Of a DNA stretch of 57,163 bases, positions 5,064 to 35,355 are shown piece by piece; positions within the stretch are counted from its first letter, which is position 1; each line of letters opens with the position of its first letter. The translations under genes and the position numbers were made by a program. The DNA lies in the IMG/VR virus record IMGVR_UViG_3300037452_000193, positions 1 through 57,163 of that record; one strand, given 5' to 3'. The notes beneath the pieces are model-generated. The model saw only the letters and a program-made list of their open reading frames with translations, searched no databases and was not told the DNA's origin. Source of the DNA: a virus.

Positions 5064-5308
5064 TGCTCCCCGGCGCCGGGTTCAAGGCGTTCAAATCCCC
5101 CCACAATCGACCATCGAGCCGTGAGATCGCCCACCGCCAGTCGATGGTGGTGGCCTGTCGAGCCTGCGGGGCCCGGGTGGGGGAGCGGTGCACTGTCCGG
5201 AGTTCCGCCCGCCCGGCCTGGGATCCGCATCGCATCCGAATGGCTGACATTGGACGATGGAAGCGGCGCAGCCTGAATGTCCGCGTGACCTCGAGGTCCA
5301 TTCGGTAA
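5063..5308 (+). CDS. Small zinc-ribbon-like protein (81 aa)
   Basis: ATG overlaps the upstream TGA (TGATG). Residues ~30-58 carry C-x2-C-x7-C (CRACGARVGERC) followed by HRIRM, the pattern of small actinophage zinc-binding proteins (CPACGA..G..C...H..R). It is probably a DNA- or protein-binding accessory factor. It is the last gene before the bidirectional terminator at 5351-5378. Confidence 0.6.
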   Translation: MLPGAGFKAFKSPHNRPSSREIAHRQSMVVACRACGARVGERCTVRSSARPAWDPHRIRMADIGRWKRRSLNVRVTSRSIR

Positions 5309-5395: not shown

Positions 5396-6205
5396 TCAGT
5401 CGGTGGGCAGTCCGATCGCTGCGACCGCGGCCTTCGCTGCATCCTGATCGAACGCCGTGTAGACGGCCGTGGTGGCCACCGATGCGTGACCGAGGAGTTC
5501 CTGGACCACCCTGAGGTCATGGCACTGCCGGAGGGCGTTGCTGGCGAAGGAGTGCCGGAGGGTGTGCGCTCCTCCCGTGATGCCCTGCTTGCGGAGGAAC
5601 CGCCCGATGTTCCAACTGATCTGATTGGCCGTGAACTTCCGATTGTGCTCGGTCTTCCACATGAGCCCTCCGAAGGGCGGAGTCACGCGTTCGAGAGCCT
5701 CCCGCAACTGAGGGTGAAGGGGGACGAGGCGCTCCTTCCCCCCCTTGGCCTCGGTGACCCGGAGCAGTCCTTCTGCGAGCATCACATCGTCGGCCCGGAG
5801 GCCGGCTATCTCCTGGCACCTGAGGCCGGCCAGCGCCCCGCACAGCAGCCAGGCTCGCATCACCGGCCGAGCGGCTTCCAGGGCCTTCTGGAGGTCCGAG
5901 GAGGGCATCGGACGAGGGAGGCGCCGCGGGGTCTTCGGGGCCTTGATCCGGATGGTCGGGTCTCTCACCTGGAATCCCTCTCCGGAGCAGTACCGGTAGA
6001 AGCACTTCAAATGGGACACCCACAGAGATCGGGTCTTGAGGCTCATGTCCCGACGGTCGAGCCAGGACTCGACCTCCTCTTGGGTGACGTGGAAGCCCAG
6101 CTCCCGCTCAAAGGTCCGCAGCATGATCTCCCGCTGCACGATGGTGGTGTGGGCGAGGCCCTGCCTCTCCATGGATTTCACGTACCGGGCGATGTAGTCG
6201 GCCAT
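5396..6205 (-). CDS. int: Tyrosine recombinase / integrase
   Basis: 269-residue lambda-integrase-family site-specific recombinase. The N-terminal ~90 residues form a SAM-like core-binding domain. The catalytic domain shows all expected residues: Arg129 (AGLRCQEIAGL), Lys154 (TEAKGGKER), His214/Arg217 (HTLRH), His240 (LLGHAS) and Tyr249 (TTAVYTAF). It lacks the extra N-terminal arm-binding domain of the largest phage integrases. It would integrate the phage into the host chromosome by attP x attB recombination. The gene is alone on its strand, with its own promoter and operator sites (6232-6263) and the CCTACGGAA leader motif. No excisionase or attP core could be identified with confidence. 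Confidence 0.93.
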   Translation of the reverse strand: MADYIARYVKSMERQGLAHTTIVQREIMLRTFERELGFHVTQEEVESWLDRRDMSLKTRSLWVSHLKCFYRYCSGEGFQVRDPTIRIKAPKTPRRLPRPMPSSDLQKALEAARPVMRAWLLCGALAGLRCQEIAGLRADDVMLAEGLLRVTEAKGGKERLVPLHPQLREALERVTPPFGGLMWKTEHNRKFTANQISWNIGRFLRKQGITGGAHTLRHSFASNALRQCHDLRVVQELLGHASVATTAVYTAFDQDAAKAAVAAIGLPTD

Positions 6206-25196: not shown

Positions 25197-25351
25197 GGAG
25201 GGTATTGGTGGGCCACCAGCCGCATTCGACCTTCCGCCGGGACGCACACAACCCAGGCATGGCATGACGGGCACTCAGCGGACCGATTGATCGGACCCCA
25301 CAAACCCTCGCGCCGGGCGATTAGCTTTCCCCCTCCGGTGCACAGCGTCAT
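25190..25351 (-). CDS. Small zinc-finger protein (53 aa)
   Basis: ATG 25351 overlaps the ParB-HTH stop (ATGA). MTLCTGGGKLIARREGLWG...AECPSCHAWV...LVAHQYPPY has the C...C-x2-C...H pattern of small actinophage zinc fingers. Its stop codon is embedded in the operator half-site at 25188-25196. Confidence 0.6.
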   Translation of the reverse strand: MTLCTGGGKLIARREGLWGPINRSAECPSCHAWVVCVPAEGRMRLVAHQYPPY

Positions 25352-26250
25352 GCTCGCCCTGTCTCTTCGGCCCATCCGTCGATGGTCGACCGATACCACG
25401 CCGGAGCCTTCGAAACGTACAGGTCAGGCTCCGGCAGGAGAGCGCGGACCTTCCATTTGTGGGCGGTTGCAGGCACGACTCCGAGGTGCTCCGCGATGTC
25501 CACCAGGCCCAGCACCGACTCGCGCGTCATCGCGTTTTCGGCCCGGGCCATCCGCTCCCCCTCGTTGACCAGGTACCGGGCCAGCTCGACCGACCATTCC
25601 TCGGTTGCGAGACGGAAATCTCCCCCAAAGAGCGCCGATTCCTCTTGAGCGGCCTCTGCGGCTTTCCTGGCCGCCTCTCCGCACGCTCCGACCCACGCTC
25701 CCAGGTTGGGAGCATCCTCGAGCAGTCGAACCATGGTGGCTTGTACCGCCGGAGCCAAGGCATACAACGGTCGACACCAGGCAAAGCCTCGCGCCGCCAT
25801 GATCGGACGTACCGCGGGGTCCAGGCGCAAGAGTTCGAGCCGGTTCCTGACAAAGCCAGGGGTCCGACCGACACTCTCCGCAATTCGCTCGACCGTCCAC
25901 CCCGCGTCGACCAGTTCCCCAAACCCTTCGGCATCTTCCCAGGGTTGCGCCTCGTGGTGCGTCAGGTTGTCGGCCATGGCGCTGGCCAGCTCCTCGGCTC
26001 TGTCTGCAGGGTCTTCGACATAGGCAGGGATCTCCGACCACCCCAGGCCCTCAACGGCCGTCAGCCGGTGATCTCCCCCTTTCAACCGATACCGACCGTC
26101 AGGGGTTGGAACGACGCGGATCGGATTGTGCAATCCTTCGGCTTTGATCCGATTGCGCAGTCCATCGACGTCGTCGACCTTTCGGTAGTTGTGACGGTCG
26201 ATGAGGTGCACCGACACGAGCACCGCGGTTCGGATCTCAGCGGTGCTCAC
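25348..26250 (-). CDS. ParB-like protein fused to an excisionase-type HTH
   Basis: 300 residues, GTG after GGGGGAGGATTACTT. Residues ~10-95 are a ParB N-terminal domain (VHLIDRHNYRK, EGLHNPIRVVPTPDGRYRLKGGDHRLTAVEGLGWSEIPA); the usual GERR box reads KGGDHR. Residues ~100-150 hold the ParB/KorB HTH (ELVDAGWTVERIAESVGRTPGFVRNRLELL). The last ~60 residues (VLGLVDIAEHLGVVPATAHKWKVRALLPEPDLYVSKAPAWYRSTIDGWAEE) match AlpA/excisionase-type HTH_17 domains. No ParA is encoded, so classical partition is unlikely; a site-specific DNA-binding or excision/regulatory role fits better. Confidence 0.75.
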   Translation of the reverse strand: MSTAEIRTAVLVSVHLIDRHNYRKVDDVDGLRNRIKAEGLHNPIRVVPTPDGRYRLKGGDHRLTAVEGLGWSEIPAYVEDPADRAEELASAMADNLTHHEAQPWEDAEGFGELVDAGWTVERIAESVGRTPGFVRNRLELLRLDPAVRPIMAARGFAWCRPLYALAPAVQATMVRLLEDAPNLGAWVGACGEAARKAAEAAQEESALFGGDFRLATEEWSVELARYLVNEGERMARAENAMTRESVLGLVDIAEHLGVVPATAHKWKVRALLPEPDLYVSKAPAWYRSTIDGWAEETGRA

Positions 26251-29185: not shown

Positions 29186-29258
29186 CGCAGGGTGGAGAAG
29201 TTGGTATCTCGCCTGGCTCATAACCAGGAGATCGCCGGTTCGAGTCCGGCCCCTGCCA
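29186..29258 (+). tRNA. tRNA with CAU anticodon and initiator-type features
   Basis: Full cloverleaf: acceptor CGCAGGG/CCCTGCC, D stem GAGA/TCTC, anticodon stem CCTGG/CCAGG with loop CTCATAA (anticodon CAU at 29219-29221), T stem GCCGG/CCGGC with loop TTCGAGT, discriminator A73, no encoded CCA. Initiator hallmarks: the 1:72 pair is a C-C mismatch (bacterial initiators have C-A) and the D stem has A11:U24. It lacks one of the three consecutive G:C pairs at 29-31 (U29:A41 here). So it is initiator-like, not a normal elongator Met or Ile tRNA. Confidence 0.88.
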
Positions 29259-29310: not shown

Positions 29311-29601
29311 CTACGCCGCCCTGCGCCGTAGATGCCTGACGAAGGCCCCGAAGCCGATCAGATAGGCGAGAACGAGCATCTCGAAGACCCACCACGTCCC
29401 CCCGTTGGCGAACCACCAGACGTGGTAGATCGTCCACCATGCCCAATGGATCACCTCGTAGACGGCGAGGATCCCCAGGCCGATGAAAAAGGCTTGGGCC
29501 AGGGTCTTTGCGACGAACCCGGCTCCCCACCACCACCAACCGACGGAGTAGTAGGCGAAGCCCCCCTTCCGTTGGTCGATCCAGACCCGGCGGTACCTCA
29601 C
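29311..29601 (-). CDS. Trp-rich membrane protein (96 aa)
   Basis: GTG 29601 overlaps the upstream stop (GTGA). At least two hydrophobic segments (GFVAKTLAQAFFIGLGILAVY and WWVFEMLVLAYLIGFGAFV) with an amphipathic Trp/His/Tyr stretch between (VIHWAWWTIYHVWWFANGGTWW); about one residue in eight is Trp. Short basic tail. Could be a holin-like or immunity membrane protein. It forms a two-gene leftward island with the RHH-type protein inside the late region. Confidence 0.65.
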   Translation of the reverse strand: MRYRRVWIDQRKGGFAYYSVGWWWWGAGFVAKTLAQAFFIGLGILAVYEVIHWAWWTIYHVWWFANGGTWWVFEMLVLAYLIGFGAFVRHLRRRAA

Positions 29602-30131
29602 AGCTTCACCTTCCCCTTCAACTTGGCCCCGCAGAGCCGGCAGAACTCCAGGTCCATGACCTTGTTCCGCAGGGCGGGGGGATGGTCGCACTGCTCGGGG
29701 TCGACCCTCTTGTGGGTGACGGCCCTCTTGCGGCCACGGGGGGGTCTCGGGGGGCCAGGGGCGATGGGGGCCTGTCGCTTGGTCTCTGGAGCTCGGGGGT
29801 CCCGGCTCTTGCGGAGCTTCTCGAGGTAGTCGACGACCAAGGTGGAGACCGTGGTCCCGTTGGCATGGGCCGCCACTCTCCCTGCGTCCCAGGCCTCCTG
29901 ACTGCAGCGGAAAGCGCGAACCCGGGTCCCGGGGGACGGCGGCCGCATGATGCGAGGCTCTCCGTCGCGTCTCTTGCCGGTCTTGACCGTGATCTTCTTC
30001 CATGGGACTTTGGCGGCCAGGAAATCCTGGACCAGGGCTGAAACGGTCGTGTCGAAGTGGGCAGCGACGGCCTGAGCGTTCTCCCACACCTCATCAGTGG
30101 TGCGGATGTTCCGAATCGGGGTACTGGCCAC
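29598..30131 (-). CDS. Tandem ribbon-helix-helix-like regulator with zinc tail (177 aa)
   Basis: GTG 30131 behind GAGAGGAGCCCC. Two related segments, IRNIRTTDEVWENAQAVAAH (~6) then TTVSALVQDFLA, and RVRAFRCSQEAWDAGRVAAH (~70) then TTVSTLVVDYLEK, both fit RHH units (strand, helix, T-x-S-x-L-x-x-x-x-L). A basic linker and CDHPPALRNKVMDLEFCRLCG zinc ribbon follow. Its promoter region carries three operator half-sites, so it is a good candidate for the protein that binds them, by autoregulation. Confidence 0.6.
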   Translation of the reverse strand: MASTPIRNIRTTDEVWENAQAVAAHFDTTVSALVQDFLAAKVPWKKITVKTGKRRDGEPRIMRPPSPGTRVRAFRCSQEAWDAGRVAAHANGTTVSTLVVDYLEKLRKSRDPRAPETKRQAPIAPGPPRPPRGRKRAVTHKRVDPEQCDHPPALRNKVMDLEFCRLCGAKLKGKVKL

Positions 30132-30206: not shown

Positions 30207-30656
30207 ATGCCCGACGACGAAGAAGAGACGATCACCGTTTTGGTCCCGGCCATTCCCAGCGCGGTCGTCAACGGGGCGTCGAACCGGGCCATCACCACCG
30301 CCATCGCGGAGGACCTCTGCGAGCAGCTCATCGGCATCTATCCCTGGGTGCTCGAGTGCGACGCGGTGGCCATCGAGCAGTATTGCCGGGCCGAAGCCAG
30401 GGCACGCCTGCTCGACGACTACTGCATGAGGAAGGCCGAAGCGGAGGGGCCGGAGTGCGTCGCCCCGCATATGTGGTCAGAGGCTTCGAAGGCGGAGACC
30501 AACGCCATGCGGGCCGCTGAGGCCCTGGGCCTGACCCCGGCCGGCCGCGGGAAGATCATGAAGGACGCCGGCATCTTCGCCTCGAGCTTCAACACCGAGG
30601 GTGTCCAGGGGCTCCGGGCCGTCGGCGCCGAGATTCGCCGTCGGCGGGGAGCGTGA
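30207..30656 (+). CDS. terS: Terminase small subunit
   Basis: 149 residues from ATG 30207 (CAGGAGCCGGCC before it). Helical N-terminal region (AITTAIAEDLCEQLIGIYPW...DAVAIEQYCRAEARARLLDDYCMRKAEAEGPE) and C-terminal WSEASKAETNAMRAAEALGLTPAGRGKIMKDAG: the P27/terS-type pattern (EA...NA.R....LGLTP..R.K). Directly followed by the large subunit with a GTGA overlap. It should recognise the packaging site and recruit TerL. Confidence 0.8.
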   Translation: MPDDEEETITVLVPAIPSAVVNGASNRAITTAIAEDLCEQLIGIYPWVLECDAVAIEQYCRAEARARLLDDYCMRKAEAEGPECVAPHMWSEASKAETNAMRAAEALGLTPAGRGKIMKDAGIFASSFNTEGVQGLRAVGAEIRRRRGA

Positions 30657-32230
30657 GCCAGGAAGCTCTCGACCTCCTCTTCGGCATGGTGCTGGAGGAC
30701 GGTCGGAGGTGGGGCGATGCGGCGGCCGACTTCCAGATCGAGGATGCCAAGGCGATCCTCCTCAATGAACGCCCCGACCCGACCTGGCACTTCCTCACCC
30801 GTGCTCGGGGCGGGTCGAAATCGACCGACGTCGGAGCCATTTCCATCGCCTGGCTGGTGGAGGACGCCCCTCCGCTCTCGAACGGCCATATCGTCGCCGC
30901 CTCCACAGACCAAGCCTCGATCGTCATTGATGCGGCCCACGGGCTGATCGCGCGCACCCCTGAGCTCGCGGATGCTCTGGTGGCCGAATCCGTCCGCCTC
31001 CGGGCCCCGAACGGCGCCTGGGTCGAGGTACTGGCTCAATCCGACTCCGGAGCCTGGGGCTTGCGCGACGCCCGCCTGATCGTGGCCGACGAGTTCTGCC
31101 AATGGCCGGAGACCCGTGGAGCGAAGCGGGTGTGGCAGGCCCTCCAATCGGCGGCTCCGAAGGTCCCGAACTGCAAGCTCATCGCCATGTCCTCGGCGGG
31201 CGAGCCCTCTCATTGGACGCGCGACGTCCTCGAGAAGGCGCAGACCAACCCCCTGTGGCGAGTGAACGAAGTTCCCGGTCCTGTTCCTTGGCTCAATGCG
31301 GAGGAGCTCGAGGCCCTCAAGTGGGACCTCCCCCCCTCCGCCTACGAGCGCCTCGTTCTCAACATCTGGTCCGAGGCCGAAGATCGAGCCGTATCTGAGG
31401 AGGACTGGAACTACGCGGCCCGGGACTACTCCTCCCTGAGCCCTCAGCCCAACATCCGCTACATCATCGCCGTGGACATCGGCATCCTGAACGACGCCTC
31501 GGTCATGGTGATTGCTCACAAGGAGCCGATTGATGACCAAGCTCGCTTTGGGCCTCATCGAGTTGTGGTCGACCACGTCGAGCGATGGAAAGGCTCCAAG
31601 AAGAAGCCGATCAACCCCTCGGACGTCGAGGACTGGCTGGTGCAGCAGGCGCCGCGGTGGAACCGGGCCACGGTCTACGCCGACCCCGACCAGTTCCGAG
31701 GCAACGTCCTCAACCTCAACCGACGCGGAGTGCGGGCCAAGGAGTTCCCTTTCACGGCCACGTCGGTGGGGACGGTGGCGACGGCCCTGGTCCAGACCTT
31801 CCGCAGTCGACAGATCTACGTCCCCGCCCGGCCGCCGGCCGGCCCGGTCCTGAAAGACGAGCTCCTCCGGGTCCGCCTGCGTGAATCCGCCCCCGGAGTA
31901 ACGCGGCTCGACCACGACCGCGGCGGGCACGACGACCAGGCCGTGACCGTCGGGATGGCCTGCAAGCTCCTGTTGGGCAACGCCGGGGCCATTGGTGCAA
32001 ACTTTCGTGAATTCATGATTCGCGATAGTGAGCGCCAGCTCCAAAAGCGGACTGAGCGCGGTCGGCAGGACGATGCCAAGTCTCGGCTCGAGCGGCGCAT
32101 GAACAATCGGAGAGAGGTGGTGCGCAGGACGCGCCGCCGGGAGCGCGAGGAGTGCCTCCACCGTTGGAGCCCGGACGGCTCCTACTGCGTGTTCTGCTTC
32201 ACGCCGAAGCCCGAAGAGGTCCCCGTCTGA
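30653..32230 (+). CDS. terL: Terminase large subunit
   Basis: 525 residues. ATPase: Walker A-like ARGGSKST at 51-58 and Walker B LIVADEFC near 141-148. RNase-H-like nuclease: AVDIG near 272, YADPDQ near 340, and HDRGGHDDQAV near 420. Powers DNA translocation into the prohead and cuts genome ends. The C-terminal ~60 residues are Arg/Glu-rich with a Cys pair (CLHRWSPDGSYCVFC), a small zinc motif not usual in terminases. GTG overlaps terS stop; TGA overlaps portal ATG. Confidence 0.92.
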   Translation: MSQEALDLLFGMVLEDGRRWGDAAADFQIEDAKAILLNERPDPTWHFLTRARGGSKSTDVGAISIAWLVEDAPPLSNGHIVAASTDQASIVIDAAHGLIARTPELADALVAESVRLRAPNGAWVEVLAQSDSGAWGLRDARLIVADEFCQWPETRGAKRVWQALQSAAPKVPNCKLIAMSSAGEPSHWTRDVLEKAQTNPLWRVNEVPGPVPWLNAEELEALKWDLPPSAYERLVLNIWSEAEDRAVSEEDWNYAARDYSSLSPQPNIRYIIAVDIGILNDASVMVIAHKEPIDDQARFGPHRVVVDHVERWKGSKKKPINPSDVEDWLVQQAPRWNRATVYADPDQFRGNVLNLNRRGVRAKEFPFTATSVGTVATALVQTFRSRQIYVPARPPAGPVLKDELLRVRLRESAPGVTRLDHDRGGHDDQAVTVGMACKLLLGNAGAIGANFREFMIRDSERQLQKRTERGRQDDAKSRLERRMNNRREVVRRTRRREREECLHRWSPDGSYCVFCFTPKPEEVPV

Positions 32231-35200
32231 TGCCTCGACTTCCTCGGTTGCGGTCACGCACTCCCGTGCTCGAGCCTGGCGAGCTCCTCACCCGGGCCAT
32301 CAAGGTCGCCACGAAGCCCGAGACGCTGGCGGAGTTCCGTCCCGAGGACCGTCGGAGCATCGACGAAGTGGCCCAGGCCCTCAAGGCCGGGGCGAACTGG
32401 ACCCCTCCGGGGACGAGCTCAGGGACGGTCGCCCAGTTGTCCCGGGCCCGGCCCGTGTCGGCCACGGTGCTGGCGCAACAGGCCCGTCAATCTCTGGCCC
32501 CGAGCTCGACCCTCACGCCGGCCCATATCGAGATCGCTCTTCGTGACCAAGGTCTCGACTGGGTGCAGCCCTTCGCTCCTGGCCGTCCCCTCACCCCGTA
32601 CTACGGCTACGACCGCCGGCCGCGCGAGCGCAACTACGAAGTCGGCCGCAACATCACGACGCAAACGCGTCCCGGACGCATCCCCTACGAGACCCTCAAG
32701 CACCTCATCGAGTCCTACGACGTGGCGATGATCTGCATGAGGCACGCCATCCAGGATCTTCGCTCGATGCGCGTCCGCTTCGAAGCCATGGATGGGTACG
32801 AAGAGAACCCGGTCAAAGAGATCGCCGCGGCCAAGGATTTCTGGCGGCGCCCCGATCGGAAGATCGACATCGAGACGGGCAAGCCCATCCCCAACACCGG
32901 GATGACGCTGCGCAACTGGCTGTGCAAGCACGCGACCGACGTGTGGCGGTTCGACTGCGGCTCCATGTATCGCCACCGCGACCGTGCCGGCCGGCTCCTC
33001 AGCCTTCCGATCCCCGACGGCACGCTCTTCGCGCCGATGCTCGACTACTTCGGTACGAATCCCTCGGGGGACGCTCCGGCTTTCCAGCAGTTCATCCAGG
33101 GAATCCCCTGGGACTGGATCCGGTGGGACGCTCTCATCTACGAGCCGATGTGGCCGCACACCGAGGATCCTTACGGTGTCGCGCCGATCGAGACGATCCT
33201 CGTCAACGCCAACACGGACATCCGGCTCCAGACGTACTTCCTCCAGTTCTTCACGACGGGCACCGTTCCAGAAGCGTTCGCCATCGCGCCCGAGGATCAG
33301 TCCGACCCCGACTCTCTTGCCGACTGGCAGGAGATGTACAACGACTGGTCCTACGGCGACCAATCCGAGCGGTGGGGCCTCCGTTGGCTGCCCCACGACA
33401 CCGAGCTCGAGTTCTACAAGCCCCAGCAGTTCGACCCGGAAGTGGCCGAGTACGTCATGCGGCGCACGGTCGCGGCGTTCATGATGGTGCCCCACGACCT
33501 CGGTTTCACTGCCGACGTCAATCGGTCCACCGCTGATACGCAGATGGACACGCAGTTCCGGATCAACTCGCTGCCTCACGTCGCCTACTACGAGGACATC
33601 ATGGACGCGGTCACCCAGGAAGACCTGGGGCTGCCCGTCCAGATCCGCTTCGACACCGGTCGCGAGAAAGAAGACCGCCTCATGGAGGCGCAGGCCCACC
33701 AGATCTACGTTTCGATCGGGGCTGAATCGGCGGACGAGGTGCGGGACAAGGTTCTCGGCCATGCCATCAATCCCGAGGAGAAGGTCCCCCGCTTCTTCGA
33801 CTCGGTGCGCCTGGGCCCGATCCCCATCGCCTACCTGCTCGCCACCGCAGGAGATGTCGACCCCCTCACCGGTGCACCTCGTCCTGGGACGGTCCAAGCC
33901 CGCGACCTCGTGCTTCCAGGGACGCCGGGGCCCGACCCGGTGGCCGACCCGCCGAGCTCCAACTACCCCAACGCGGCTGGGCACGACCAGCAGCGCGAAC
34001 GGCAGGGGGTGATCGGTCCCCCAAAAGCCGCCGGCCCGCTCGTCCCCGGGCCCCTCTCACCAGAAGCCAGCAGAGGGCGAACCAACGGCGCGAGACCCGC
34101 GCCGAGAACCGGCGCCAATCCGCCGCGACCCCGAGGCGGAGCCGGCCCCGATCAGGGAACAGCGGCTAGGCGCACCCTCAAGGAAGCCACCGCGGGGGTG
34201 TCGCTGGCTACTGGCATTGCCGGTTCACCGGGCCTCATCCCGACCGAGGTGCCTGACGAGGACGAGATCACCGAGGACGTGCTCCGCTGGCGCCGTCAGT
34301 CGCGCAAGCGCGTGGCCAAGGGCAAGCCCCCGCGCCCCTTCGAAAACTCGGCCATCCCGAACGCTCTTCATTTCGAAGTATGGAAGAGCCTCCAGGAGGC
34401 GCGAACCCGCGAGGCCGTCGACGAGGCGTTCTTCTCGGCCTTCCAGCCGTACCAGCCCTACGAGGAGACCGAGACCCGTCCCTTCTCCGGTCTGGCTCTT
34501 CGAGCCAAGGACACGGGCCGCGTGCTCATGGTCCAACGGGCCCCCGACCTCAGTGACCCAGCGGGTGGGTACTTCGAGTTCCCCGGCGGCCACGTCGACG
34601 AGGGCGAGAGCACCTACGACGGGTCCCTCCGCGAGTGGGAGGAAGAGACCGGCTGCAAGATGCCGCCGGGCGCCTGCCGCGTCTCGGGTTGGGAGTCGTC
34701 GAACGGCATCTACCGGGGCCACATTTGGGAGACCCCGGCCGAGTCCGACGTCGACCTGTGGGACCGTACCGAGGTCGAGAACCCGGACAACCCCGACCAG
34801 GACGAGGACCAGTTCGAAGCCATCGTCTGGATGAACCCAGGGCACATCTCCAACAACCCCGTGGTCCGCCCTGAGCTGCGTCTCGACAGCCAACTGGTCC
34901 AGGATGCCCTCAAGAAGGAGGCTGCGCCCAACCTGGCCGGCCTCGCCCTCGTCGCCGCTGACACCGATCGTGTCCTGATGGTCCAGCGGGGCAACAAGGA
35001 CGACGGCGGGGGAGCGCGCTTCGAGTTCCCCATGGGCCACCTCGACGGTGGGGAGAGCGCCCGGTCCGCCGCCCGTCGCGAGTGGCAGGAGGAGACCGGA
35101 GCCACCCTCCCCAAAGATGCCGAGGAGATCGGCACCTGGTCCCACGAGGACTTCCAGGGCTTCGTCTACCGCATCCCCAAGCAAGACAGCGTCAAGCTCG

Positions 35201-35355
35201 GGAACGCCGATGGGGACGAAATCTCGGCCATCTCCTGGCGCGACATCGACGACCTGGACGAGAAGGAGGTCCGGGACAAGGTCCGCGACCACCTCGACCA
35301 GTCGGAACCTCTCCTCGAGCAGGCCGAAAAGGACGGTGGTCCCCCAAAAGTGTGA
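32230..35355 (+). CDS. Portal protein fused to two Nudix hydrolase domains
   Basis: 1041 residues in one uninterrupted frame from ATG 32230 (TGATG with terL). Residues ~90-540 are a phage portal: YDVAMICMRHAIQDLRSMRVRFE, W...RPDRKIDIETG, PDGTLFAPMLDYFG, DALIYEPMWPHTEDPYGVAPIE, MRRTVAAFMMVPHDLGFTADVNRSTADTQ. A Pro/Gly/Arg linker (~570-670) and a basic helical stretch follow. Two Nudix domains begin near 751 and 900, with complete Nudix boxes: GHVDEGESTYDGSLREW + EEETGC (~785-808) and GHLDGGESARSAARREWQ + EETGA (~934-957). Both keep the RE..EE metal-binding residues. Single portal proteins are usually 400-700 residues. Substrate unknown; it could act on nucleotides or capped/modified nucleotides in the prohead or infected cell. 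Confidence 0.88.
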   Translation: MPRLPRLRSRTPVLEPGELLTRAIKVATKPETLAEFRPEDRRSIDEVAQALKAGANWTPPGTSSGTVAQLSRARPVSATVLAQQARQSLAPSSTLTPAHIEIALRDQGLDWVQPFAPGRPLTPYYGYDRRPRERNYEVGRNITTQTRPGRIPYETLKHLIESYDVAMICMRHAIQDLRSMRVRFEAMDGYEENPVKEIAAAKDFWRRPDRKIDIETGKPIPNTGMTLRNWLCKHATDVWRFDCGSMYRHRDRAGRLLSLPIPDGTLFAPMLDYFGTNPSGDAPAFQQFIQGIPWDWIRWDALIYEPMWPHTEDPYGVAPIETILVNANTDIRLQTYFLQFFTTGTVPEAFAIAPEDQSDPDSLADWQEMYNDWSYGDQSERWGLRWLPHDTELEFYKPQQFDPEVAEYVMRRTVAAFMMVPHDLGFTADVNRSTADTQMDTQFRINSLPHVAYYEDIMDAVTQEDLGLPVQIRFDTGREKEDRLMEAQAHQIYVSIGAESADEVRDKVLGHAINPEEKVPRFFDSVRLGPIPIAYLLATAGDVDPLTGAPRPGTVQARDLVLPGTPGPDPVADPPSSNYPNAAGHDQQRERQGVIGPPKAAGPLVPGPLSPEASRGRTNGARPAPRTGANPPRPRGGAGPDQGTAARRTLKEATAGVSLATGIAGSPGLIPTEVPDEDEITEDVLRWRRQSRKRVAKGKPPRPFENSAIPNALHFEVWKSLQEARTREAVDEAFFSAFQPYQPYEETETRPFSGLALRAKDTGRVLMVQRAPDLSDPAGGYFEFPGGHVDEGESTYDGSLREWEEETGCKMPPGACRVSGWESSNGIYRGHIWETPAESDVDLWDRTEVENPDNPDQDEDQFEAIVWMNPGHISNNPVVRPELRLDSQLVQDALKKEAAPNLAGLALVAADTDRVLMVQRGNKDDGGGARFEFPMGHLDGGESARSAARREWQEETGATLPKDAEEIGTWSHEDFQGFVYRIPKQDSVKLGNADGDEISAISWRDIDDLDEKEVRDKVRDHLDQSEPLLEQAEKDGGPPKV

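Follow-up and report, generated by a model that had tools for sequence, protein, structure and literature searches.

A variant initiator-type tRNA upstream of the terminase genes in an undescribed lineage of temperate phages

The window analysed here, that is the whole stretch of DNA, is an IMG/VR virus record of 57,163 bases with a GC content of about 65% and the gene complement of a temperate tailed phage, including portal, tape measure and tail genes in addition to those listed in Table 1. Its sole tRNA, with the anticodon CAU, was identified by both ARAGORN and Rfam RF00005 (62.8 bits, E 2.7e-11) and lies 1.4 kb upstream of the gene for the terminase large subunit (TerL). Given this E value and the conservation of a tRNA at the corresponding place in three relatives, the gene is far beyond chance. 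CCA is not encoded, A73 being followed by CTC. No promoter or terminator was recognised when the sequence on either side was scanned, and in particular no sigma-70-like promoter nearby; transcription is therefore presumed to proceed from the upstream gene or from an unrecognised promoter. Downstream of TerL, a single 1029-aa frame at 32266-35355 (+) combines a portal with two NUDIX domains (approximately aa 746-826 and 893-1001), and both the portal part and the NUDIX part were matched in the relatives L014, L016, L017, L018 and L021.

Table 1. Coordinates of the tRNA, its parts and selected phage genes in the window
Feature	Position	Strand	Evidence	Remark
Initiator-type tRNA (CAU), 73 nt	29186..29258	(+)	ARAGORN; Rfam RF00005; initiator covariance model	
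C1, mismatched with C72	29186..29186	(+)	structural parse	unpaired acceptor-stem end, formylation determinant
A11, paired with U24 (29209)	29196..29196	(+)	structural parse	initiator-specific R11:Y24
Anticodon arm	29212..29228	(+)	structural parse	C27 C28 U29 G30 G31 / C39 C40 A41 G42 G43, loop CUCAUAA
Anticodon CAU	29219..29221	(+)	ARAGORN	
C72, mismatched with C1	29257..29257	(+)	structural parse	
Tyrosine integrase	5396..6205	(-)	phrog_1 E 2.3e-40; PF00589	23 kb from tRNA
Recombination and replication genes	6.5-11.7 kb			
ParB-like gene	25348-26250	(-)		
Arc-like repressor gene	29598..30131	(-)	phrog_6506 E 2.3e-15	between tRNA and terminase genes
TerL	30653..32230	(+)	phrog_9 E 5.9e-25	query for finding relatives

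Neither megablast of window positions 20000-44000 nor tblastn with the terminase returned a match among 50,697 phage records; no cultured relative was thus found, and the phage lineage is an undescribed one. The nearest relatives were five metagenomic viral contigs with terminases 62–67% identical to that of the window, and the Arc-like repressor, which served as a synteny marker, was also detected by tblastn in L014, L016, L017 and L018. Remoter relatives sat in metagenome-assembled genomes (MAGs) titled Acidimicrobiales, Actinomycetes and similar, which points to Acidimicrobiia-like hosts, actinobacteria of soil. Portal profiles and wider terminase profiles brought to light no additional relative with a new tRNA. 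In distant Acidimicrobiia prophages, other tRNAs stood in place of the CAU tRNA upstream of the same terminase family (tRNA-Pro(GGG) at L007:6545-6619 and L008:3220-3295; tRNA-Gln(CTG) at L009:4822-4896).

Structural parsing of the tRNA revealed initiator features in the D arm and acceptor stem (A11:U24, G2:C71, C3:G70), an open C1×C72, and two of the three G:C pairs expected at 29:41, 30:40 and 31:39, with the central G30:C40 and the inner G31:C39 retained and the canonical G29:C41 replaced by U29 (29214) and A41 (29226). The C-C mismatch, A11:U24 and the two G:C pairs had been described in a first-pass annotation of the sequence, and all were reproduced by the parse. The remaining stem pairs were standard (20/20), and the lowest-energy RNA fold was a cloverleaf with 1:72 open.

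Since CAU is the anticodon of initiator, elongator Met and (before modification) Ile2 tRNAs, the gene was scored with covariance models built from initiators of the host phylum (n=24) and from elongator Met (n=17) and Ile2 (n=8) tRNAs of the host class, all three of which assigned host control tRNAs to the correct class. The window tRNA scored 82.5 bits with the initiator model (R1), 66.9 with elongator Met (R2) and 55.3 with Ile2 (R3); the corresponding values were 53.2, 37.0 and 33.0 bits for the tRNA of L014 and L016 and 65.6, 49.7 and 38.5 bits for that of L017, so that the preference for the initiator model was alike in all (approximately 16 bits). Identity to host initiators reached 82%, and to elongator Met tRNAs at most 75%. 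The initiator-type assignment made in the first pass was upheld by these models, and by its sequence the tRNA is classed as a variant rather than a canonical member of that type, because only two of the three G:C pairs are present.

An elongator tRNA-Met that serves codon supply and resembles an initiator by chance would also carry CAU and could well lack one of the three G:C pairs, and drift is possible in a phage gene. The elongator model nevertheless scored 15.6 bits lower than the initiator model, all relatives retained R11:Y24 and a mismatch at 1:72 despite strong sequence change, AUG forms a single-codon family, and most tRNAs of this kind stand alone in their locus; nor does the window tRNA show the elongator features of the clade (G1:C72 or G1:U72, C11:G24, an elongator anticodon stem). 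We consider this explanation improbable. The same anticodon would be expected of a tRNA-Ile2 in which C34 is turned into lysidine to read AUA, an objection that had been raised beforehand, but the Ile2 model from host genomes scored 27 bits worse than the initiator model (55.3 against 82.5), the acceptor and anticodon stems of host-clade Ile2 are absent (A4:U69 and G5:C68 occur here) and the D arm is of initiator type, which leaves the Ile2 identity with almost no likelihood.

When the tRNA was compared with Acidimicrobiia and Actinomycetota tRNA-fMet, C1×C72 proved to be the usual state of the host clade (31/36 parsed host-phylum initiator loci); the C-C mismatch is therefore no sign of divergence, lends support to the host assignment, and answers the earlier concern that it might be a sequencing error. 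The unusual feature of the window tRNA is instead U29:A41. A generic initiator pattern was matched in 321/397 host-phylum genomes, and an initiator with a base other than G29 was found in none of 394 Actinomycetota genomes, the host phylum constituting the whole bacterial baseline. C1×C72, G2:C71, C3:G70, A11:U24, G30:C40, G31:C39, the CUCAUAA loop and A73 are shared with host tRNA-fMet, whereas G29:C41 and C13:G22-G46 of the host correspond to U29:A41 and A13:U22-A46 in the window, and the window tRNA further differs in A4:U69, G57 and G59, a D loop one base shorter and its phage-borne location. Mycoplasma initiators (AU/GC/GU; PMC10568206) have likewise lost the outer G:C pair and kept the central one; unlike the window tRNA, they are cellular, belong to a reduced genome with IF3 changes, and are also altered at 31:39. 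Contig C282 of a host-class MAG (G002) carries seven mostly low-scoring tRNAs in approximately 0.8 kb (132-943), resembling a phage tRNA array.

Five stem pairs of the window tRNA differed from the host-class consensus (4:69, 13:22, 27:43, 29:41 and 51:63); both sides had changed in all five and pairing was broken in none, and position 46 had shifted along with 13:22 (C13:G22-G46 to A13:U22-A46). In L014 (= L015), L016 and L017, a CAU tRNA was likewise located upstream of the Arc-like repressor, small terminase and TerL genes, about 1.8–2.2 kb from TerL. The L014 and L016 tRNAs were identical over 75/75 positions between flanks that were 59% identical on both sides; in this version U6×C67 is mismatched and an additional C lies next to the T stem. 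The L017 tRNA has U1×U72 and G11:C24, so that its bases differ with the initiator logic kept. L018 was examined and carried no tRNA, which indicates that the tRNA is dispensable. The compensated stem changes, the 75/75 identity within 59% flanks and the synteny argue that the window tRNA is an old, selected phage gene, neither a fresh host copy nor an attachment site; the earlier suggestion of a captured host gene accordingly holds for a distant origin only, not for a recent copy. Selection on the tRNA, as seen in the compensated pairs and the L014/L016 identity, also fits the role in initiation that had been proposed. A functionless passenger in decay could account for the missing tRNA in L018 and for the imperfect acceptor pairing of the L014/L016 version, but hardly for pairing that is complete after five double changes or for 75/75 identity between 59% flanks, and is in our judgement very improbable.

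The phage encodes a tyrosine integrase, and many viral contigs carry host initiator genes near their ends, apparently at prophage junctions, so that the tRNA might be a fragment of a host tRNA that serves as a site of integration (attP/attL) or that came along by accident. Against this, the tRNA is whole and lies 23 kb from the integrase rather than adjacent to it, every stem change is compensatory, the gene is syntenic in three relatives, and no identity core from the 3' half of a host tRNA is present: the longest block common to the window tRNA and host initiators was the 11-nt anticodon arm, with at most 6 consecutive identical bases in the 3' half. Nor was any host genome seen in which a prophage ended within tRNA-fMet and had a core in common with the window tRNA. 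The distance to the integrase and the 6-nt limit also tell against the use in integration that the first-pass annotation had offered, and we regard a role as an attachment site as extremely unlikely. A T-arm-like stretch near the integrase (approximately 5066-5100, GGCGTTCAAATCCCCCC) was considered and rejected, as it was absent from 100 host-class genomes and from every fetched locus.

A pattern scan of viral contigs, combining the initiator D arm with the UGG/CCA stem, recovered U29:A41 initiators in at least 119 contigs. In the 93 distinct U29:A41 initiators among the matches listed, 1:72 was paired in 28% (G:C or C:G in 3%), pairs 2:71 to 7:66 in 83–100% and other stems in 98–100%, percentages that are somewhat inflated since the parser demanded most pairs except 1:72. 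No other tRNA was present in the locus at 41/52 interior U29:A41 loci among the matches listed; this solitary occurrence leaves codon supply without explanatory value and fits a supplement or backup for initiation. When the stem condition was removed, 118 tRNAs could be parsed; A29:U41 with the inner pairs preserved occurred in 45 of them, the complete set of G:C pairs in 44 and UA/GC/GC in 10. These proportions are not relied on, as part of this sample consists of host genes at prophage ends. G30:C40 was retained in 79/81 distinct non-UA viral initiators. A46 accompanied A13:U22 or U13:A22 in 8/23 against 3/145 (p 5e-6, shared descent ignored), as expected from an intact 13-22-46 triple.

The idea that the viral A29:U41 tRNAs are phage genes throughout was rejected, many being located at contig ends and resembling host genes at prophage junctions. 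In L156, L161, L177, L180, L185, L199, L225, L231 and L245, a canonical-looking A29:U41 initiator gene lay less than approximately 100 bases from the end; such end-located genes probably mark sites where prophages adjoin tRNA-fMet, and they suggest that AU/GC/GC (A29:U41) initiators occur in certain bacteria. Because the A29:U41 set is mixed with host genes, we base our case on the U29:A41 tRNAs and on the phage lineage of the window.

Among phage records, 126–129 matched initiator queries (E <= 1e-8), a few host fragments being among them; 18 matches were fetched and 17 scored, and the initiator model exceeded the elongator model in 17/17. The margin was only 4–6 bits in some of these tRNAs and C11:G24 occurred in a few, so that not every phage tRNA bears every initiator feature. 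Annotated examples of the initiator type include those of Caulobacter phage CcrSC, Stenotrophomonas phage QDWS359, Pseudomonas phage D3, Aeromonas phage AP1 and Lak phages. Annotated phage tRNA-fMet and tRNA-Met genes resemble the window tRNA in being phage-borne and in preferring the initiator model, and CcrSC and RcXuper share its UA/GC/GC stem; they differ in phage and host and in the 1:72 bases and loop (D3 has C1×U72 and C33). CcrSC and QDWS359 carry a tRNA-fMet annotation, and most initiator-type phage tRNAs are labelled plain tRNA-Met. The premise of the first pass that phage tRNAs are usually elongators stands as a rule, although initiator types are commoner in phages than annotation implies. 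The loop CCCAUAA, with C33 for the near-universal U33, was observed in tRNAs labelled tRNA-Met in L287 (1504-1579; the temperate Pseudomonas phage D3), L288 and L291.

We think it probable that the window tRNA is a functional, phage-owned initiator which goes back to an old capture of an Acidimicrobiia-type initiator and whose later evolution took place in the phage, under selection. By analogy with studied initiators, we expect it to undergo charging and formylation and to support initiation, perhaps with less stringency than its host counterpart. CAU is read by MetRS (PMC9976931), and host MetRS would charge the tRNA through this anticodon. Formylation is directed by an unpaired 1:72 with G2:C71, C3:G70 and A11:U24 (PMC7949028, PMC9976931), and the host formyltransferase would be expected to accept the tRNA given its unpaired C1×C72 and the same three pairs. 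The three G:C pairs serve the P site (PMC7949028), G30 and the central pair mattering most within the stem (PMC7005279), and after delivery by IF2 the retained G30:C40 and G31:C39 would pass the initiator check; Mycoplasma pneumoniae is viable with an AU/GC/GU initiator (PMC10568206). Positions 29:41 and 30:40 touch 16S rRNA at the P site (PMC4611024), and as the former pair is altered here, activity could be reduced. During infection the phage tRNA may supplement or replace the host initiator pool when this is short or cut. In the least certain step of this scheme, U29:A41 may also reduce cleavage of the tRNA by host enzymes whose target is the anticodon arm of initiators.

A more specific version of this last step invokes nucleases that cleave initiators (VapC-type PIN toxins): once these have destroyed the host initiator, the phage tRNA would take its place, its altered arm escaping cleavage. 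In several bacteria, VapCs are known to cleave tRNA-fMet within the anticodon arm (PMC4105405, PMC8522696), the cut falling between A38 and C39 (PMC4105405), and a published model holds that phage tRNAs escape anticodon nucleases via anticodon-loop changes (PMC10264068). The alteration of a host-invariant 29:41 pair, the C33 in the loops of phages D3 and Donnerlittchen and the mostly solitary occurrence of initiator-type tRNAs in their loci are consistent with such evasion. In the window tRNA, however, the loop CUCAUAA and A38-C39 are unaltered and the stem alone differs, the same eLife study (PMC10264068) notes that phages as a rule do not encode tRNA-fMet when it is a VapC target, and A29:U41 is apparently present in some bacteria themselves. 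Evasion is a possibility that we hold to be rather less than even, and the broader reading of a functional phage-owned initiator is preferred.

According to one account, the three G:C pairs are universal in initiator tRNAs across the kingdoms (PMC4611024). Viral initiator-type tRNAs that have lost the outer pair, yet are widespread and under selection, amount to a natural mutagenesis experiment on initiator identity, and they suggest, in a form open to experiment, how phages might safeguard translation initiation or seize it; most of these genes are concealed by the annotation tRNA-Met. We put forward, quite tentatively and as an idea less likely than not, that many phage lineages maintain virus-specific, stand-alone initiator tRNAs in which the outer pair of the three and the 1:72 bases have re-evolved, R11:Y24, G30:C40 and an acceptor end that pairs weakly or not at all having been preserved. 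Such tRNAs would allow phage translation to begin after cleavage or depletion of the host initiator, or in preference to it. If true, this class would represent a means by which viruses specifically take over initiation. In an open library of 5.39 million papers, in which subscription journals are sparsely represented, no work was found that treats the initiator tRNAs of phages as a class.

In L291, L296, L298 and L304 (Bradleyvirinae and an Erythrobacter phage), the initiator-type tRNA adjoins the large terminase gene, as it lies near that gene in the window, and this terminase-side position may reflect a shared location on the late transcript.
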